Positions 2-49,006 of a stretch of 64,000 nt of DNA are shown here, piece by piece. The stretch comes from Spirosoma sp. 48-14 (GTDB taxonomy: Bacteria; Bacteroidota; Bacteroidia; Cytophagales; Spirosomataceae). How positions within the stretch are numbered: position 1 is the first letter of the stretch; the number at the start of each line of letters is the position of its first letter. The translations under genes and the position numbers were made by a program. The DNA is taken from the NCBI RefSeq assembly GCF_001898575.1, contig NZ_MKUD01000045.1:265382-329381 (forward strand), read 5' to 3'. The notes beneath the pieces were generated by a model. It did not search any database. It saw only the letters and a list, made by a program, of their open reading frames with translations, and had not been told where the DNA came from.

Positions 2-214
2 CGCAAGTTTGCCGCCGACGATCGACGGAAGGTTTTCATTATACCCAACACGGAAACGATCATGGCGTTGCTGGAACCCCTTTACCGAGACTTCCGCAGC
101 CAGTCGCAACAGCTTCTGGCTTCCTTTTCGGACGAGGAGCGTGCCATCATTGACACCTATTTTACAAAAGCGATTGCCCTGATGAATGAAATGATTGACT
201 TGTTGAATGATTGA
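2..214 (+). CDS. MarR-family transcriptional regulator, C-terminal end (partial)
   Basis: The reading frame is open from the window edge and ends with TGA after about 70 residues; it is too short on the left for the ORF track. It begins with a DDRRKVFIIP stretch, which fits the wing of a MarR winged helix (the DRR motif), followed by a long amphipathic region (SDEERAIIDTYFTKAIALM) like the C-terminal dimerisation helices of MarR proteins. The N-terminal half lies outside the window. It sits 82 bp upstream of rph in the same direction, so it may control rph or be co-transcribed with it; that link is inference. Family assignment rests on the DRR motif and the helical tail only. Confidence 0.6.
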   Translation, partial: RKFAADDRRKVFIIPNTETIMALLEPLYRDFRSQSQQLLASFSDEERAIIDTYFTKAIALMNEMIDLLND

Positions 215-296
215 CTTGTCGATTGACAGAGTGAAACATATACAGTATTCCATACAACCATTCAACAATTCAACCATTCAATCATTCGACCCTTAC

Positions 297-2924
297 ATGA
301 ACCATTACACCATTGATTTTCAACATATAGACAGAACAAAGCTCAACGTTGTCGGGGGCAAAGGGGCTAACCTGGGAGAGTTGTCTCGGATGCCGGGCAT
401 AAACGTACCCGCAGGCTTTTGCATAACGACGGAAGCCTATAACGAGCTTGTGGCACAGAACGAAACTGCCCATTCACTGCTCAGCCAACTGGCGCTTCTA
501 TCCATCGACAAGCGGAATGAGATCAGTGCACTCAGCGCCCAACTCCGCGCGGCTATTGAAGCCATTCCCATTCCCCAGGCTCTGGCCGGAGCGATTACGG
601 AACACCTCAAAACGTATGGTGAACAGGAGGCTTATGCGGTACGGTCCAGCGCCACCGCCGAGGATTTGCCTACCGCTTCCTTTGCCGGTCAGCAGGATAC
701 GTATCTTAATATCATTGGTGCGGAAGCCATTCTACGGCATATGAGTAAATGCTGGGCATCGCTGTTCACCGAGCGGGCCGTAACCTACCGCATTCAGCAT
801 GGCTTCGACCACCGCAACATCCGGCTGGCGGTGGTGGTTCAGAAGATGGTTTTTCCGCAGACAGCGGGCATTCTGTTTACGGCCGATCCGGTTTCGGGTA
901 ATCGTAAGATCGTATCCATCGACGCCAGTTTCGGACTTGGTGAAGCCTTGGTCGCGGGTCTGGTCAATGCTGATACGTATAAAGTGCGTAATGGCGAAGT
1001 GATCGAGAAAAAAATCCCGGCTAAGAAACTGGCTATTTATGCTGCCGAAAAGGGGGGCACAATCGAAAAAGCCGTTGAAGCAGAGCAACAATACCAGTCA
1101 GCGCTAACGGACGAGCAGGTTTTGCAGTTAGAACGCATCGGCCGTACAGTTGAAGCCCATTTCGGCCAGTCGCAGGACATCGAATGGTGTCTAGTAGACC
1201 AGTCGGTTTACGTTGTCCAGAGTCGGCCCATCACGACTTTGTTTCCCCTCCCGGAAGTGGCTGATAAAGCCCCCCATGTGTATGTATCGGTTGGACACCA
1301 GCAAATGATGACCGATGCCATGAAGCCGTTAGGCATAGCTATGTGGCAACTGACGGCGGGCCGACCGATGCCCACGGCGGGTGGACGGATTTTCGTGGAT
1401 GTGGCCGATGATCTGGCATCGCCTGTCAAACGACACATGCTGGTTAATGTATTAGGCAAATCGGACCCGCTTATCAGAGACGCGTTTATGACCCTGCTGG
1501 AGCGTGGCGATTTCATCAAATCGGTGCCAGAGCAGCCGGAAGCGGTTCCAGCCCAAAGTCCTCCAGGCCCACCGCCCGTCGATTACCAAACCCTGGCCGA
1601 CTACGATCCGGCTATTGTTTCGGAATTGATCGGTCGCAGTGAAACAGCCATAGCGGAACTAAAACAGGCGATTCAATCAAAATCGGGCACAGACCTGATC
1701 GATTTTATTCAGGAAACAACCCAACAGTCGAAACGAGGTGCGGCTGATTCGCAAAGTTTCGGGGTTATCATGACAGGCATGAACGCGGCCTCCTGGCTCA
1801 ACGAACATATGGAGATGTGGTTGGGTGAAAAAGCCGTAGCCGACACACTGACGCAATCGGTGCCGAACAATATCACATCCGAAATGGGACTGGCCTTGCT
1901 GGATGTGGCCGATGCCATTCGCCCTTATCCTGACGTAATTGCCTATTTACAACGGGGTAACCTTGCGCAGGAACAAGACGCTCATTTCCTGGATGAGCTG
2001 GCTACGGTGGCCGGTGGACCAGAAGCCCGTAACGCCATCAACATTTTTCTGACCAGATACGGCATGCGATGTGCCGGAGAAATCGACATTACGAGACCCC
2101 GATGGAGCGAAAAACCGGCTACGCTTATCCCGCTGATTCTAAGCAACATCAAAAACTTTGAACCGGGCGAAAGTAGTCGGCGGTTTGAGCGGGGGTTGCG
2201 GGAAGCGATGGCCAAAAAACAGGAGATTCTGGCCCGGCTGAAGCAATTACCGGATGGCGACGAGAAAGTGAACGAAACGAGCCGCATGATCGACCTGGTT
2301 CGTAACCTGGCCGGGTATCGGGAGTATCCTAAATACGGCATCGTCAGTCGCTATTTCGTTTTTAAACAGGCGCTGTTAAAAGAAGCCGGGCGACTCGTGC
2401 AGGCGGGCGTTCTTCACGAAAAAGAAGACCTGTTTTACCTCAGATTGGACGAACTCCGCGAAGTCATCCGCACCCATACGCTGGGCTATGACCTGATCAA
2501 TCAGCGAAAAGACGACTACAAACGCTTTGAAAAACTAACACCTCCACGGGTGATGACATCCGACGGTGAAATCATTACGGGTCAGTACAAACGCGACAAT
2601 CTCCCGGCCGATGCTATTGTCGGATTACCCGTTTCGGCGGGCGTGATTGAGGGACGGGCGCGGGTCATTCTGAAGATGGAAGATGCCGAGCTGGAAGAAG
2701 GCGATATTCTCGTCACGCCCTTTACCGACCCGAGCTGGACACCCCTGTTTGTCGCCATCAAAGGGCTGGTTACTGAAGTCGGTGGCCTGATGACCCACGG
2801 AGCCGTTATAGCCCGTGAGTATGGCTTACCCGCCGTTGTGGGCATCGATCAGGCAACGAAGTTGATCAAAGATGAGCAACGAATCCGGCTAAACGGCACC
2901 GAGGGGTATATTGAAATCCTGTAA
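297..2924 (+). CDS. rph: rifampin (rifamycin) phosphotransferase
   Basis: Rifampin phosphotransferases use ATP to phosphorylate the ansa-bridge hydroxyl of rifamycins, giving AMP and phosphate and inactivating the drug. The protein has the three-part layout of that family: an N-terminal ATP-grasp domain like PEP synthase (VVGGKGANLGEL near residue 20, then RSSATAEDLPTASFAGQQDT), a central substrate domain (from about 330 to 750), and a C-terminal swivelling phosphohistidine domain. The catalytic His lies in LMTHGAVIAREYG, 41 residues from the end, as in characterised enzymes. The PEP synthase C-terminal barrel is absent, which separates it from ppsA. The track starts at 207, but the first 30 residues are low-complexity and overlap the MarR stop; the Met at 297 (MNHYTIDF) gives 875 aa, close to the usual 865-870. 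Whether it confers resistance here is untested. Confidence 0.88.
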   Translation: MNHYTIDFQHIDRTKLNVVGGKGANLGELSRMPGINVPAGFCITTEAYNELVAQNETAHSLLSQLALLSIDKRNEISALSAQLRAAIEAIPIPQALAGAITEHLKTYGEQEAYAVRSSATAEDLPTASFAGQQDTYLNIIGAEAILRHMSKCWASLFTERAVTYRIQHGFDHRNIRLAVVVQKMVFPQTAGILFTADPVSGNRKIVSIDASFGLGEALVAGLVNADTYKVRNGEVIEKKIPAKKLAIYAAEKGGTIEKAVEAEQQYQSALTDEQVLQLERIGRTVEAHFGQSQDIEWCLVDQSVYVVQSRPITTLFPLPEVADKAPHVYVSVGHQQMMTDAMKPLGIAMWQLTAGRPMPTAGGRIFVDVADDLASPVKRHMLVNVLGKSDPLIRDAFMTLLERGDFIKSVPEQPEAVPAQSPPGPPPVDYQTLADYDPAIVSELIGRSETAIAELKQAIQSKSGTDLIDFIQETTQQSKRGAADSQSFGVIMTGMNAASWLNEHMEMWLGEKAVADTLTQSVPNNITSEMGLALLDVADAIRPYPDVIAYLQRGNLAQEQDAHFLDELATVAGGPEARNAINIFLTRYGMRCAGEIDITRPRWSEKPATLIPLILSNIKNFEPGESSRRFERGLREAMAKKQEILARLKQLPDGDEKVNETSRMIDLVRNLAGYREYPKYGIVSRYFVFKQALLKEAGRLVQAGVLHEKEDLFYLRLDELREVIRTHTLGYDLINQRKDDYKRFEKLTPPRVMTSDGEIITGQYKRDNLPADAIVGLPVSAGVIEGRARVILKMEDAELEEGDILVTPFTDPSWTPLFVAIKGLVTEVGGLMTHGAVIAREYGLPAVVGIDQATKLIKDEQRIRLNGTEGYIEIL

Positions 2925-24515: not shown

Positions 24516-25244
24516 CTAAAGCGTTCTCAGCTTAATATTACGGAACCAGACACTCGTATTCCAATCCTGAAGACCAATGCGTCCGCTGTATTTGCCTTTG
24601 CCAACAGGGGCATCTTTCAGCTTACTGGCGGCCATCCGCTTTTTCCAGTCGGCACTGGTCAGGTCGTGTTCCTGCACCACATACCCATTGATCGTGACGG
24701 TCAGTTTATTTTTTTTCAGCATCACCTCCACTTTATTCCAGGTCCCTAGCGGTTGAGGCTCCTGAATACGGACATCAGCGATGCCAAAGAGGTCGCCGGA
24801 GTTGTGCGGATGTTCTACCGCTTTCTGATACAACACATCATCGCCCACCTGCACCTCCAGACCCGTGTTATAGATCTTCTCGTTCTTAGGCGCTTCCTCG
24901 ACGAAGAAAAAGAAACCACTATTGGTGTACTTCTCAATTTTATACTCCGCCTTAAAGGCAAAATCGCCGGATATAACAGCATCAGTGACTAAATCGCCAC
25001 CGTCGCGAACCGTACCAGTTGCCGTTTTGGGCACATCCAGATGCAAAACGCCCTGTTCTACTTTCCAGGAAGACGGCACACCTTTACCATTGTATTTATG
25101 CCAGCCTTTGAGATCCTGGCCATCAAAAAGCAGCTTCCATCCCTCTTTTTTCTCCTGTGCCGACAAGGTATTAAGCGACTGGGCCTGCACACCAGCAAAA
25201 GCCAGCATCAGGAGCAAACTGCAAACAGATCTTTTCAAAAACAT
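24516..25244 (-). CDS. DUF1080 (3-keto-disaccharide hydrolase type) secreted protein
   Basis: 242 aa from the Met at 25244, which begins a clean signal peptide (MFLKRSVCSLLLMLAFAGVQ). The track start adds 36 residues without homology. DUF1080 proteins have a concanavalin/LamG-like jelly roll. Signature segments: GWKLLFDGQDLKGWHKYNGK, NSGFFFFVEE, and the final GRIGLQDWNTSVWFRNIKL. Characterised members cleave 3-keto-glycosides or bind sugars; the substrate here is unknown. Transcribed alone, ending at a bidirectional hairpin. Confidence 0.88.
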   Translation of the reverse strand: MFLKRSVCSLLLMLAFAGVQAQSLNTLSAQEKKEGWKLLFDGQDLKGWHKYNGKGVPSSWKVEQGVLHLDVPKTATGTVRDGGDLVTDAVISGDFAFKAEYKIEKYTNSGFFFFVEEAPKNEKIYNTGLEVQVGDDVLYQKAVEHPHNSGDLFGIADVRIQEPQPLGTWNKVEVMLKKNKLTVTINGYVVQEHDLTSADWKKRMAASKLKDAPVGKGKYSGRIGLQDWNTSVWFRNIKLRTL

Positions 25245-25431
25245 AGTGATTAGGATTGAATCTACATAAGCCAATCGCCCGACGAAACTCCTCATTCCAC
25301 ACTCGTTTTCACCTCGTCCACCTAACCTACTATACCAGCTGAAACAGGCCATCGAATTATGATTTTGCGGCTAAACTTTACGGACTAAATTATGCCGCAA
25401 ACGACCCATTTATTGCCGTTTTTACCCCCCA

Positions 25432-46167: not shown

Positions 46168-47304
46168 TTACTCCACAAATAAAGTTGCAGCAACCCGATC
46201 GGCAAACAACTTGCCCGCCTGGGTCAGACGCAGCCAATCGCCCTCGCGGATAAGCCAGCCCGATGCGTACATGGCCGACAACTCATCAGCCTGTTGACAG
46301 GTAAAATCCATTCCCAGCAATTTGTTCAATTCAGTTAGTGAGCAGCCCCACTGAGTCCGTAATCCAGTCAGCAGATAGTCGTTTACCTGATCAGCAATGG
46401 TTAGTTCTTCACGTTCAGCAGGGATTTGCCCCTGCTGAATGACAGCGATATAACGTGCATTGTTGGCAATATTGTATTGCCTCGAAAAACCATTGTAGGA
46501 ATGGGCACTAGGACCTACGCCCAGATAGGGCTTACGTTGCCAATAGGCGGTATTATGCCGGGCATATTGAACGACACCTTCCTGATCGGCACGGGCAAAA
46601 TTCGAGATTTCGTAATGTTCGTATCCGGTCTGAATCAATGCCTGAGTCAACTCCTCAAACTGATCGGCAGCCAACGCTTCATCGGCCGGGGGTAGTTTTC
46701 CTTTCTGTTGCCAGCGCCCAAAAGCAGTGTCGGGTTCAATGGTCAGGGCATAAGCCGAGAGATGTGGTATGTTCAAGGCCAGCATCTTTTCCATATCCTG
46801 TTTCCAGCACGATTCATGGCGGTTCGGTATCCCATAAATCAAATCAACACTCAGGTTTTCAAACCCCACTTCTCGGGCCAGTCCAACGCAATTTTCAGCT
46901 TCCGTTGCCGAATGAGCGCGGTTCATCCAGCGAAGTGTTGCCTCGTCAAATGTCTGAATGCCAATACTCAACCGATTTACGTATCGACGGAGCATCGCTA
47001 ATTTTTCGCGACTCAGATCATCCGGATTAGCCTCTAGCGTTATTTCCGCGTTGGGTGCTATGACAAACTGATTGTTGATCGTCTCAAAAAGCTGAGCCAG
47101 TTCATTCTCCGTCAGGATTGAGGGCGTTCCACCACCCAAATAAACCGTTTCCAGAACCGAGGTTGGCAAATACGCTTTCTGAAGGCGGATTTCAGTGCAA
47201 ATGGCCTCAACCAAAGCTGGTTTCAGGCGCATGCTCGTACTAAAATGGAAGTCGCAGTAGTGGCAGGCCTGCTTACAAAACGGTATGTGCAAATAAAGGT
47301 GCAT
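46168..47304 (-). CDS. hemW: radical SAM heme chaperone HemW
   Basis: 378 aa from Met 47304 (MHLYLHIPFCKQACHYCDFH). The CxxxCxxC cluster motif (Cys 10, 14, 17) binds the 4Fe-4S cluster; the following Phe after YCD is typical of HemN/HemW proteins. GGGTPSIL binds SAM, and VDLIYGIPNRHESCWKQDME and HLSAYALTIEPDT are family blocks. The C-terminal HemN domain carries YEISNFARADQEGVVQY. HemW proteins bind heme and help insert it into respiratory enzymes; the extra Cys typical of true coproporphyrinogen III dehydrogenase N-termini is absent. Confidence 0.92.
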   Translation of the reverse strand: MHLYLHIPFCKQACHYCDFHFSTSMRLKPALVEAICTEIRLQKAYLPTSVLETVYLGGGTPSILTENELAQLFETINNQFVIAPNAEITLEANPDDLSREKLAMLRRYVNRLSIGIQTFDEATLRWMNRAHSATEAENCVGLAREVGFENLSVDLIYGIPNRHESCWKQDMEKMLALNIPHLSAYALTIEPDTAFGRWQQKGKLPPADEALAADQFEELTQALIQTGYEHYEISNFARADQEGVVQYARHNTAYWQRKPYLGVGPSAHSYNGFSRQYNIANNARYIAVIQQGQIPAEREELTIADQVNDYLLTGLRTQWGCSLTELNKLLGMDFTCQQADELSAMYASGWLIREGDWLRLTQAGKLFADRVAATLFVE

Positions 47305-47388
47305 CGCTCTTAGAGACAACAAAACGGGGAGTTGGGTTCAAAAGAGAGAGGAAGAGGGCAATCAGAAACGACAACTTCGCTTCTCCTT

Positions 47389-47841
47389 TTATAACTTTTT
47401 CTCCAGCACAATCGCCAGTCCACGCTTTCCCTGCGTGACGCCAATGATGTCGAAGCCAACGTGTATGTTCAGGCTAAGCATGGAACGCCACTGATTGTAA
47501 GTCTGCGTTCGGATGGTATGGTACTTCTGGGTTCGGCACCACTCGTGTTGCCGGCGCATCAGTTCTGACGCAATACCGTGCCCTCTGAAATCGAGATGAA
47601 CCCCACCGAGCCAGCTATAGTAGTGACCCTTCTTCCGTTCATAGCCCAGTTTACACCCAACAACCCGACCATCAGCCAGGGCTAGTTGCATTTGCAACCC
47701 TGTTCGGGATTGCTGATACGTCAGTTCAGCGAGTAGTTTGGAGCGGGATCGATTGGAAAAAACAACGGTAAGCAGATCGATCAGTGACGACAGGAGAGGT
47801 TCCTGGGGAAGCTCAGAAACGGATGTATACTGTATGTCCAT
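47389..47841 (-). CDS. GNAT N-acetyltransferase
   Basis: 150 aa. Acetyl-CoA-dependent transferase with motif A in YYSWLGGVHLDFRGHGIASE (pyrophosphate loop RGHGIA) and motif B near LNIHVGFDIIGV. The acceptor is unknown. It starts 45 bp downstream of a 51-aa Cys/Lys-rich gene and probably shares its promoter at 48065-48095. Confidence 0.85.
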   Translation of the reverse strand: MDIQYTSVSELPQEPLLSSLIDLLTVVFSNRSRSKLLAELTYQQSRTGLQMQLALADGRVVGCKLGYERKKGHYYSWLGGVHLDFRGHGIASELMRRQHEWCRTQKYHTIRTQTYNQWRSMLSLNIHVGFDIIGVTQGKRGLAIVLEKKL

Positions 47842-47886: not shown

Positions 47887-48042
47887 TCAGTCCGGGCACT
47901 TTTTACAGCGTTTGCCCTTCTTATATTTCTTGCAGCATTTCTTCAACACACACTCATAGCCCACAAAAGGGTTGGTCTGAATCAGTGTTTTAGCATCGTT
48001 CGAAGCAAGGGTATAATCAGTAGCCAGCAAATCCGTACTCAT
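47887..48042 (-). CDS. 51-aa Cys/Lys-rich small protein (new)
   Basis: This gene is too short for the ORF track. From ATG 48042 it encodes MSTDLLATDYTLASNDAKTL, then NPFVGYECVLKKCCKKYKKG and KRCKKCPD. Five Cys lie in the last 21 residues (C, CC, C..C) among nine or more Lys/Arg. This could bind zinc, iron-sulfur or nucleic acid, but I recognise no family. Support for a real gene: a near-consensus promoter (TTTG-19-TACCTTTG) starts 23 bp upstream, codons look like the genome's, and a GNAT gene follows 45 bp later on the same strand. The function may be joined to the GNAT enzyme. Confidence 0.68.
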   Translation of the reverse strand: MSTDLLATDYTLASNDAKTLIQTNPFVGYECVLKKCCKKYKKGKRCKKCPD

Positions 48043-48064
48043 GAATCATTGTTGTTTTCTGCCA

Positions 48065-48095
48065 CAAAGGTAAGCTTGTTTAGATTTATTACAAA
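48065..48095 (-). promoter_or_regulatory. promoter of the small Cys-rich gene and GNAT operon
   Basis: On the minus strand TTTG (48095-48092), a 19-nt spacer and TACCTTTG (48072-48065) match the Bacteroidota consensus. The ATG of the 51-aa gene follows 22 nt after the -7 box. Confidence 0.7.
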
Positions 48096-48190
48096 TTAAA
48101 ATAATTGATTTCTTTTAAAAGCAATAGCCCGAAGGCGTTGGTGCTTTCGGGCTATGGATTCGTAATTAATGAATTGAAGAGCAGACTATT

Positions 48191-49006
48191 TTAGTGATGA
48201 ATTTCTCCAGTCATATACAACTGTACCTGTCCGGAAATATCGACCCGAACGGGGTTCGTACCATCATCATTGAGTTTACACCGAATGTAGCCCCCTCGCT
48301 TTGACAACTGACGGGCCGATAGCTCCGTTTTCCCTAATCGCTCGGCCCAGTACGGCATAAGCGTCGTATAGGCAGATCCCGTTACCGGATCTTCGTCGAT
48401 ACCTGCCTGTGGACCAAAAAAGCGGGCTACAAAATCAATCCCAGAATCCTCATTGGCGGGTGCGGTCACAATGACTCCCCGCGCGGGTACGGTATTCATT
48501 TCCCGAAAATCAGGTTCCAGCGCTTCGATCTGCTCCTGCGTTTTGTATACCAGCATGTAATCAGTTTTGCCTTTGTAAATTTCCAGCGGTCTTTCCTTTA
48601 CACTACTGATCAAGGCAGGCGGTTGGAGGTTAGCTTTGTGAACCACATCGGCCGGGAAATCGAGCGTTAACCAGCCATCCTCGCTCCGGCACACTTTCAG
48701 CATACCCGATCGGGACGTAAAAAATACCTGATCACCTAGTCCGGTATTTTCCAGGAAAAATAACACATACCCCGTAGCAAGGGTAGCATGCCCGCACAGG
48801 TCGACTTCGATAGTGGGCGTGAACCAGCGAATATGATACGTGTCTTTCTGATCGGTTTTTACATAAAATGCGGTTTCTGCCAGGTTATTTTCCGTCGCGA
48901 TTTGCTGTAGTCGTTCGTCAGGAAGCCAATCGGTCAACGGTATAACAGCCGCTGGATTACCGGCAAACAATTGATCGGTAAACGCGTCAAGTTGATAAAT
49001 ACGCAT
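48191..49006 (-). CDS. PhzF-family isomerase/epimerase-like protein
   Basis: 271 aa. Two-domain diaminopimelate-epimerase fold of the PhzF family. Hallmarks: YQLDAFTDQLFAGNPAAVIP with the conserved opening, ATENNLAETAFYVK containing the catalytic Glu, FTPTIEVDLCGHATLATGYV, and DEDPVTGSAYTTLMPYWAER. Characterised members catalyse isomerisation, but most chromosomal PhzF proteins have no known substrate. It is cytoplasmic. It lies 35 bp after the HAD phosphatase gene on the same strand and may be co-transcribed with it. Confidence 0.9.
   Translation of the reverse strand: MRIYQLDAFTDQLFAGNPAAVIPLTDWLPDERLQQIATENNLAETAFYVKTDQKDTYHIRWFTPTIEVDLCGHATLATGYVLFFLENTGLGDQVFFTSRSGMLKVCRSEDGWLTLDFPADVVHKANLQPPALISSVKERPLEIYKGKTDYMLVYKTQEQIEALEPDFREMNTVPARGVIVTAPANEDSGIDFVARFFGPQAGIDEDPVTGSAYTTLMPYWAERLGKTELSARQLSKRGGYIRCKLNDDGTNPVRVDISGQVQLYMTGEIHH

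Follow-up and report, generated by a model that had tools for sequence, protein, structure and literature searches.

A 64-kb stretch of the Spirosoma sp. 48-14 genome (here, the window) raises the question of whether a 51-residue reading frame rich in cysteine and lysine is a gene and, if so, what its product does. The initial annotation had put this frame forward as a missed protein; comparative analysis confirms the frame, with its five cysteines and basic tail, and places it in a conserved family. This mini-protein, absent from gene catalogues, extends what is probably the iron regulon of a large phylum, where it probably helps iron-starved cells to reach stored or bound iron. The features of the locus are collected in Table 1.

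Table 1. Features of the mini-protein locus, in window positions
Feature	Position	Strand	Remarks
Cys/Lys-rich mini-protein ORF, 51 aa	47887..48042	-	Family conserved in Bacteroidota, single copy
C-terminal module ECVLKKCCKKYKKGKRCKKCPD, CC-x8-C-x2-CP, putative Fe-S/metal site	47890..47955	-	Invariant Cys; weak FhuF match
Bacteroidota-type promoter TTTG-N19-TACCTTTG, -33/-7	48065..48095	-	Kept in orthologues
Fur-box-like operator ATTTGTAATAAATCTAAAC	48078..48096	-	3 mismatches to ATTTAGAWTNAWTCTAAAT; overlaps -33 element
GNAT acetyltransferase	47389..47841	-	PF00583, E 3.5e-7; neighbour, not conserved partner
HemW-like radical SAM haem chaperone	46168..47322	-	TIGR00539, E 3e-83; next downstream
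PhzF-family isomerase	48191..49006	-	Upstream; neighbour within genus only

A small gene conserved in the Bacteroidota

The translated protein (MSTDLLATDYTLASNDAKTLIQTNPFVGYECVLKKCCKKYKKGKRCKKCPD) is basic (pI 9.2, with 11 lysines and arginines versus five aspartates and glutamates), its tail having a pI of 9.8, and its cysteines are C31, C36, C37, C46, and C49. In a tblastn search over 59 relatives, 35 of the 36 Spirosoma genomes proved to have one copy of the gene; the one without it is 71% complete. Three genomes from other families carry it too. A class-wide search with a profile built from 26 diverse members found it, always as a single copy, in 79 of 395 sampled genomes and 42 of 196 genera; one among these matches, in genome G095, is broken by a stop.

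The pattern of substitution differs sharply along the protein. Across 26 Spirosoma orthologues that share the same length, the gene as a whole has a pN/pS of 0.30, its N-terminal part 0.57, and the tail 0.05, and the share of differences that fall at the third codon position is 51% over the whole gene and 81% in the tail. The tail is under strong purifying selection and the N terminus drifts. Because of its near-universal presence in the genus, the concentration of differences at third codon positions, and the pN/pS values, the frame is a real gene and more than a chance reading frame.

Other sources gave little by which to name the family. None of the Pfam and NCBIfam models covers it, and no named small protein was found in the literature on Flavobacteriales iron responses. 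A viral or mobile origin was considered and set aside, as no viral contig matched, and the search for relatives of solved structure returned chance matches to dynactin only. The AlphaFold model is poor (pLDDT 58.6) and unfit for a fold search.

A cysteine tail that resembles the cluster site of FhuF

Four of the five cysteines and one proline (C36, C37, C46, C49, and P50) are invariant in the family alignment. Homologues are mostly 45-60 residues long, with a variable N terminus and a C terminus that keeps the cysteine pattern, which is CC-x8-C-x2-C in 101 of 118 homologues and CC-x9-C-x2-C in the other 17. Relatives sharing this spacing, which the initial annotation expected of a genuine protein, are present both in Spirosoma and in the wider family, and a metal-binding tail, suggested there as one possibility, is the best reading of the motif.

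The closest known pattern is that of the ferric-siderophore reductase FhuF, whose [2Fe-2S] site is C-C-x10-C-x2-C (PMC8068687) and whose 262-residue E. coli representative ends in RRTCCQRYRLPDVQQCGDCTLK. The family tail, KKCCKKYKK--GKRCKKCP, lies in register with this motif across a two-residue gap, and both hhalign and BLASTP place all four cysteines and the tyrosine of the tail on it. These are single comparisons of modest score (for hhalign, E 0.026 at no more than 1.9% probability; for BLASTP, E 0.008), and the lysine- and cysteine-rich composition inflates such weak scores. TIGR03950, the model of FhuF-like reductases, is the only one matched repeatedly by the family, by 18 of 26 members, yet with a best E of 0.013 that falls far short of its cut-off. 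PF11575 (FhuF_C) matches none of the same 26 members, nor the gene in Spirosoma. A scan of 396 sampled Bacteroidota genomes gave no match to this model; the draft genome of one Spirosoma (G002, 84% complete) does match it.

FhuF and the mini-protein have in common a vicinal cysteine pair at the extreme C terminus, the CC-x-x-Y pattern, basic flanks, and a C-x2-C pair, together with Fur control, which is known for FhuF and predicted from the operator for the mini-protein. They differ in length (262 versus 51 residues), in the ligand-binding reductase domain that the mini-protein lacks, and in a cysteine spacing of 8-9 rather than 10, so that the C-C-x10-C-x2-C signature is not present. With sub-threshold scores and no PF11575 match, the likeness is best taken as resemblance and not as membership of the FhuF family.

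A Fur-box-like operator over the promoter

The promoter pointed out in the initial annotation is present and is a good example of the Bacteroidota type. As a loose pattern it occurs three times in the window versus 0.7 expected and is therefore weak on its own; its conservation upstream of orthologues adds to it. Upstream of the Spirosoma orthologues, a common element, ATTTGTAATnAATCTAAAYAA, directly precedes TAnnTTTG and consists of one degenerate and one good half of the palindrome ATTTAGAWTNAWTCTAAAT, the left half-site, TTTGTAAT, being the degenerate one. The palindrome overlaps the promoter at a fixed position that is conserved across families. Within about 200 bp upstream of the gene, a box with at most 3 mismatches is found in 28 of 35 Spirosoma loci, where dinucleotide shuffles predict 0.10; for other genera and families the figure is 31 of 83 homologues, with 0.55 predicted. 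In several families, namely f108, f82, f91, f76, and f97, this region yielded no Fur box.

The best experimental parallel is the Fur box of Riemerella anatipestifer, ATTTAGAATTATTCTAAAT, which has been tested by EMSA (PMC5609570). Both it and the mini-protein operator are palindromes of the same 7-1-7 type, lie less than 100 bp from start codons, and overlap a -33/-7 promoter, whereas the left half-site is degenerate in Spirosoma, where Fur binding is a prediction. A DtxR/IdeR-type box was the initial candidate, but Fur suits the 7-1-7 spacing of the half-sites and the Riemerella sequence better.

In the Spirosoma sp. 48-14 genome, the degenerate Spirosoma sequence showed no enrichment over its control, and the symmetrical palindrome gave five sites versus one for the control, two of the five lying before feoA-feoB and a TonB-dependent-receptor-like gene. 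Genus-wide, 15 sites versus 12 for a reversed-pattern control amount to no enrichment; the argument rests on the identity of the genes that carry them. Eleven of the 15 stand at promoters of TonB-dependent-receptor-like, siderophore-interacting protein (SIP), PepSY, or Peripla_BP_2 genes. In all, the palindrome in Spirosoma was seen at the feoA-feoB promoter (L107); receptor-like promoters (L106, L112, L115, L117, L119, and L122), with receptors called by CarboxypepD-reg and plug-like N termini from the part of each ORF that was read; promoters of siderophore-interacting FAD reductases (L113, L114, L118, and L121); and those of a PepSY gene (L116) and a Peripla_BP_2 protein (L120). Because the operator is conserved, the same palindrome stands before iron genes, and the genome contains three Fur-family genes, Fur control of the mini-protein gene is a prediction well supported by sequence; Fur would bind there and release the gene at low iron.

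Several further boxes were seen in passing. In the four Spirosoma genomes with SIP reductase sites, a palindrome with 0-1 mismatch lies 20-137 bp before the reductase start. Close to near-perfect Fur-like boxes at three other Spirosoma loci, L124 (-567..-219 from the centre), L126 (+146..473), and L125, there is a protein of 109-116 residues that shows a Cys-x2-Cys and TTHGK pattern (GYIGHCSCCGTYNVAFKNSLF in L126; L124 has a relative), which is a candidate for an uncharacterised member of the iron regulon. The window has a second, weaker Fur-like match at 25249-25267, with 3 mismatches, in the start region of the ORF for a DUF1080-like secreted protein (24516-25352, minus strand); this match is probably due to chance.

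Ferritin as a neighbour

A ferritin gene (PF00210, E 1e-31 or better) lies beside the mini-protein gene in three lineages: Sphingobacteriales MAGs (L040, L041, L045, and L046), genome G724 (L198), and genome G728 (L176). Among the matches listed there is no further case. In the MAGs and G724 the mini-protein gene directly follows the ferritin gene on the same strand; the copies at these loci have no Fur box of their own and look as if they were co-transcribed with it. In G728 the ferritin gene lies 126 bp downstream and the mini-protein gene has a 1-mismatch box. In Spirosoma the ferritin gene is on another contig. The adjacency is rare and was noticed post hoc: for three independent cases, a rough Poisson calculation gives 4e-6 to 2e-4 at expectations of 0.03 to 0.1, and the true significance is weaker because ferritin was not named beforehand. 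Ferritin is also present in 75 of 79 genomes with the mini-protein versus 184 of 316 others (Fisher p 1e-11) and in 39 of 42 genera with it versus 99 of 154 others (p 1e-4), by tests that ignore phylogeny and are confounded by it.

A proposed role in iron mobilisation and its alternatives

The reading we favour, tentatively and at somewhat short of an even chance, is that of a Fur-repressed protein that bears a metal site, Fe-S or other, and takes part in intracellular iron mobilisation, with ferritin as its likeliest partner. It builds on what the sequences themselves display: the conserved gene, the conserved operator, the ferritin neighbourhoods, and the cysteine motif. Of these, the operator, the neighbourhoods, and the likeness of the motif to FhuF went unnoticed in the initial annotation. 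When iron is plentiful, Fur would repress the gene of this small cytosolic protein; in iron starvation the repression would be lifted and the protein made. Its invariant CC-x8/9-C-x2-CP tail may hold a metal centre, most likely an FhuF-type [2Fe-2S] cluster with vicinal cysteines, and the lysine-rich tail may dock on an acidic partner, most likely a non-haem ferritin. Once docked, it would pass electrons (or take up iron), allowing Fe3+ to exit as Fe2+, a role parallel to that of Bfd at haem-bearing bacterioferritin. The cofactor or cluster, the ferritin partner, and the electron transfer with its direction are the conjectural steps of this scheme.

To our knowledge, the reductant of the non-haem ferritin core in bacteria is unsettled, and a mini-protein with a Fur-like operator beside ferritin is a concrete and easily tested candidate for it. 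Bfd frees iron from haem-bearing bacterioferritin and does not bind FtnA in Pseudomonas aeruginosa (PMC8945002). The only Fer2_BFD matches in Spirosoma are parts of long ORFs (at least 656 residues), and none is a stand-alone Bfd. Like Bfd (PF04324), the mini-protein is small, is predicted from its operator to be derepressed by low iron, is sometimes encoded beside a ferritin-type gene (in three lineages), and is proposed to donate electrons to stored iron. It is unrelated to Bfd in sequence, has another cysteine pattern and no Fer2_BFD match in Pfam, and its proposed partner is a non-haem ferritin rather than a haem bacterioferritin. A bolder and more doubtful form of the proposal would see in the family a class of mini-ferredoxins of about 50 residues whose vicinal-cysteine [2Fe-2S] site frees iron from non-haem ferritin in Bacteroidota; if true, these would fill the vacant role of a Bfd for Ftn-type ferritins.

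Other roles compatible with Fur control have to be weighed. A small basic protein behind a Fur-like operator is also the profile of FbpB (48 residues; PMC7430163), and the mini-protein might accordingly bind RNA, as its basic tail would suit. It resembles FbpA, FbpB, and FbpC of Bacillus subtilis in its length of about 50 residues, basic character, and (as predicted from the operator) Fur control, but differs from them in its four invariant cysteines, which RNA binding alone would leave unexplained, in the ferritin neighbours of some lineages, which this role does not predict, and in matching no Fbp family in Pfam; RNA binding is, moreover, undemonstrated even for FbpB itself. We regard this role as unlikely. 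We likewise give little credence to a free-standing [2Fe-2S] module of FhuF type that would act as a reductant of imported ferric chelates, of siderophore or haem iron, instead of ferritin. The similar cysteine motif, the operator found also at receptor and SIP reductase genes, and the absence of FhuF_C itself from the sampled genomes all suit such a helper, yet the gene adjoins ferritin rather than transport genes, the ligand-binding domain of FhuF is missing, and Spirosoma already has SIP reductases.

An iron or metal chaperone or buffer, delivering Fe2+ or a cluster to clients when iron is scarce and doing no redox work, would account for a small, cysteine-rich, single-copy protein with a Fur-like operator; it is quite improbable, as the invariant CC-x8-C-x2-CP spacing suggests a defined cluster site and ferritin is the only linked client gene. 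Scarcely credible is the role given by the initial annotation to the adjacent acetyltransferase, with the mini-protein as its substrate or partner. The GNAT start codon does lie 45 bp past the mini-protein stop on the same strand, as described there, with the family confirmed by PF00583, and the two genes are immediate neighbours in 23 of 35 Spirosoma loci. In the other 12, however, GNAT is absent or displaced while the mini-protein gene persists, and the pair is not adjacent in any of the other genera examined, so that as a general function the partnership was rejected, being largely refuted by synteny.

Other neighbours

Synteny with HemW extends over most of Spirosoma and only there, and in six of the 12 loci where GNAT is absent or displaced HemW has moved up beside the mini-protein gene. 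Neither HemW nor PhzF is adjacent in the examined genera outside Spirosoma. Elsewhere the surroundings vary by family. In f100, f105, and f108 the gene and a DAHP-synthase-like one (identified by eye) are divergently oriented in what is an inherited neighbourhood (L159, L160, L164, L166, L168, L169, L179, L180, L193, L194, and L213), and within the region examined these loci show no Fur box. In f75 (L177, L186, L195, and L200) a glutathione-peroxidase-like gene, also identified by eye, lies closely 3' of it on the same strand. In f24 (L056, L057, L061, L062, L064, and L066) a convergent gene with a DnaJ domain lies beside it, with gcvP upstream in most, and the mini-protein promoters carry a ATTTATTCTAAATTA element.
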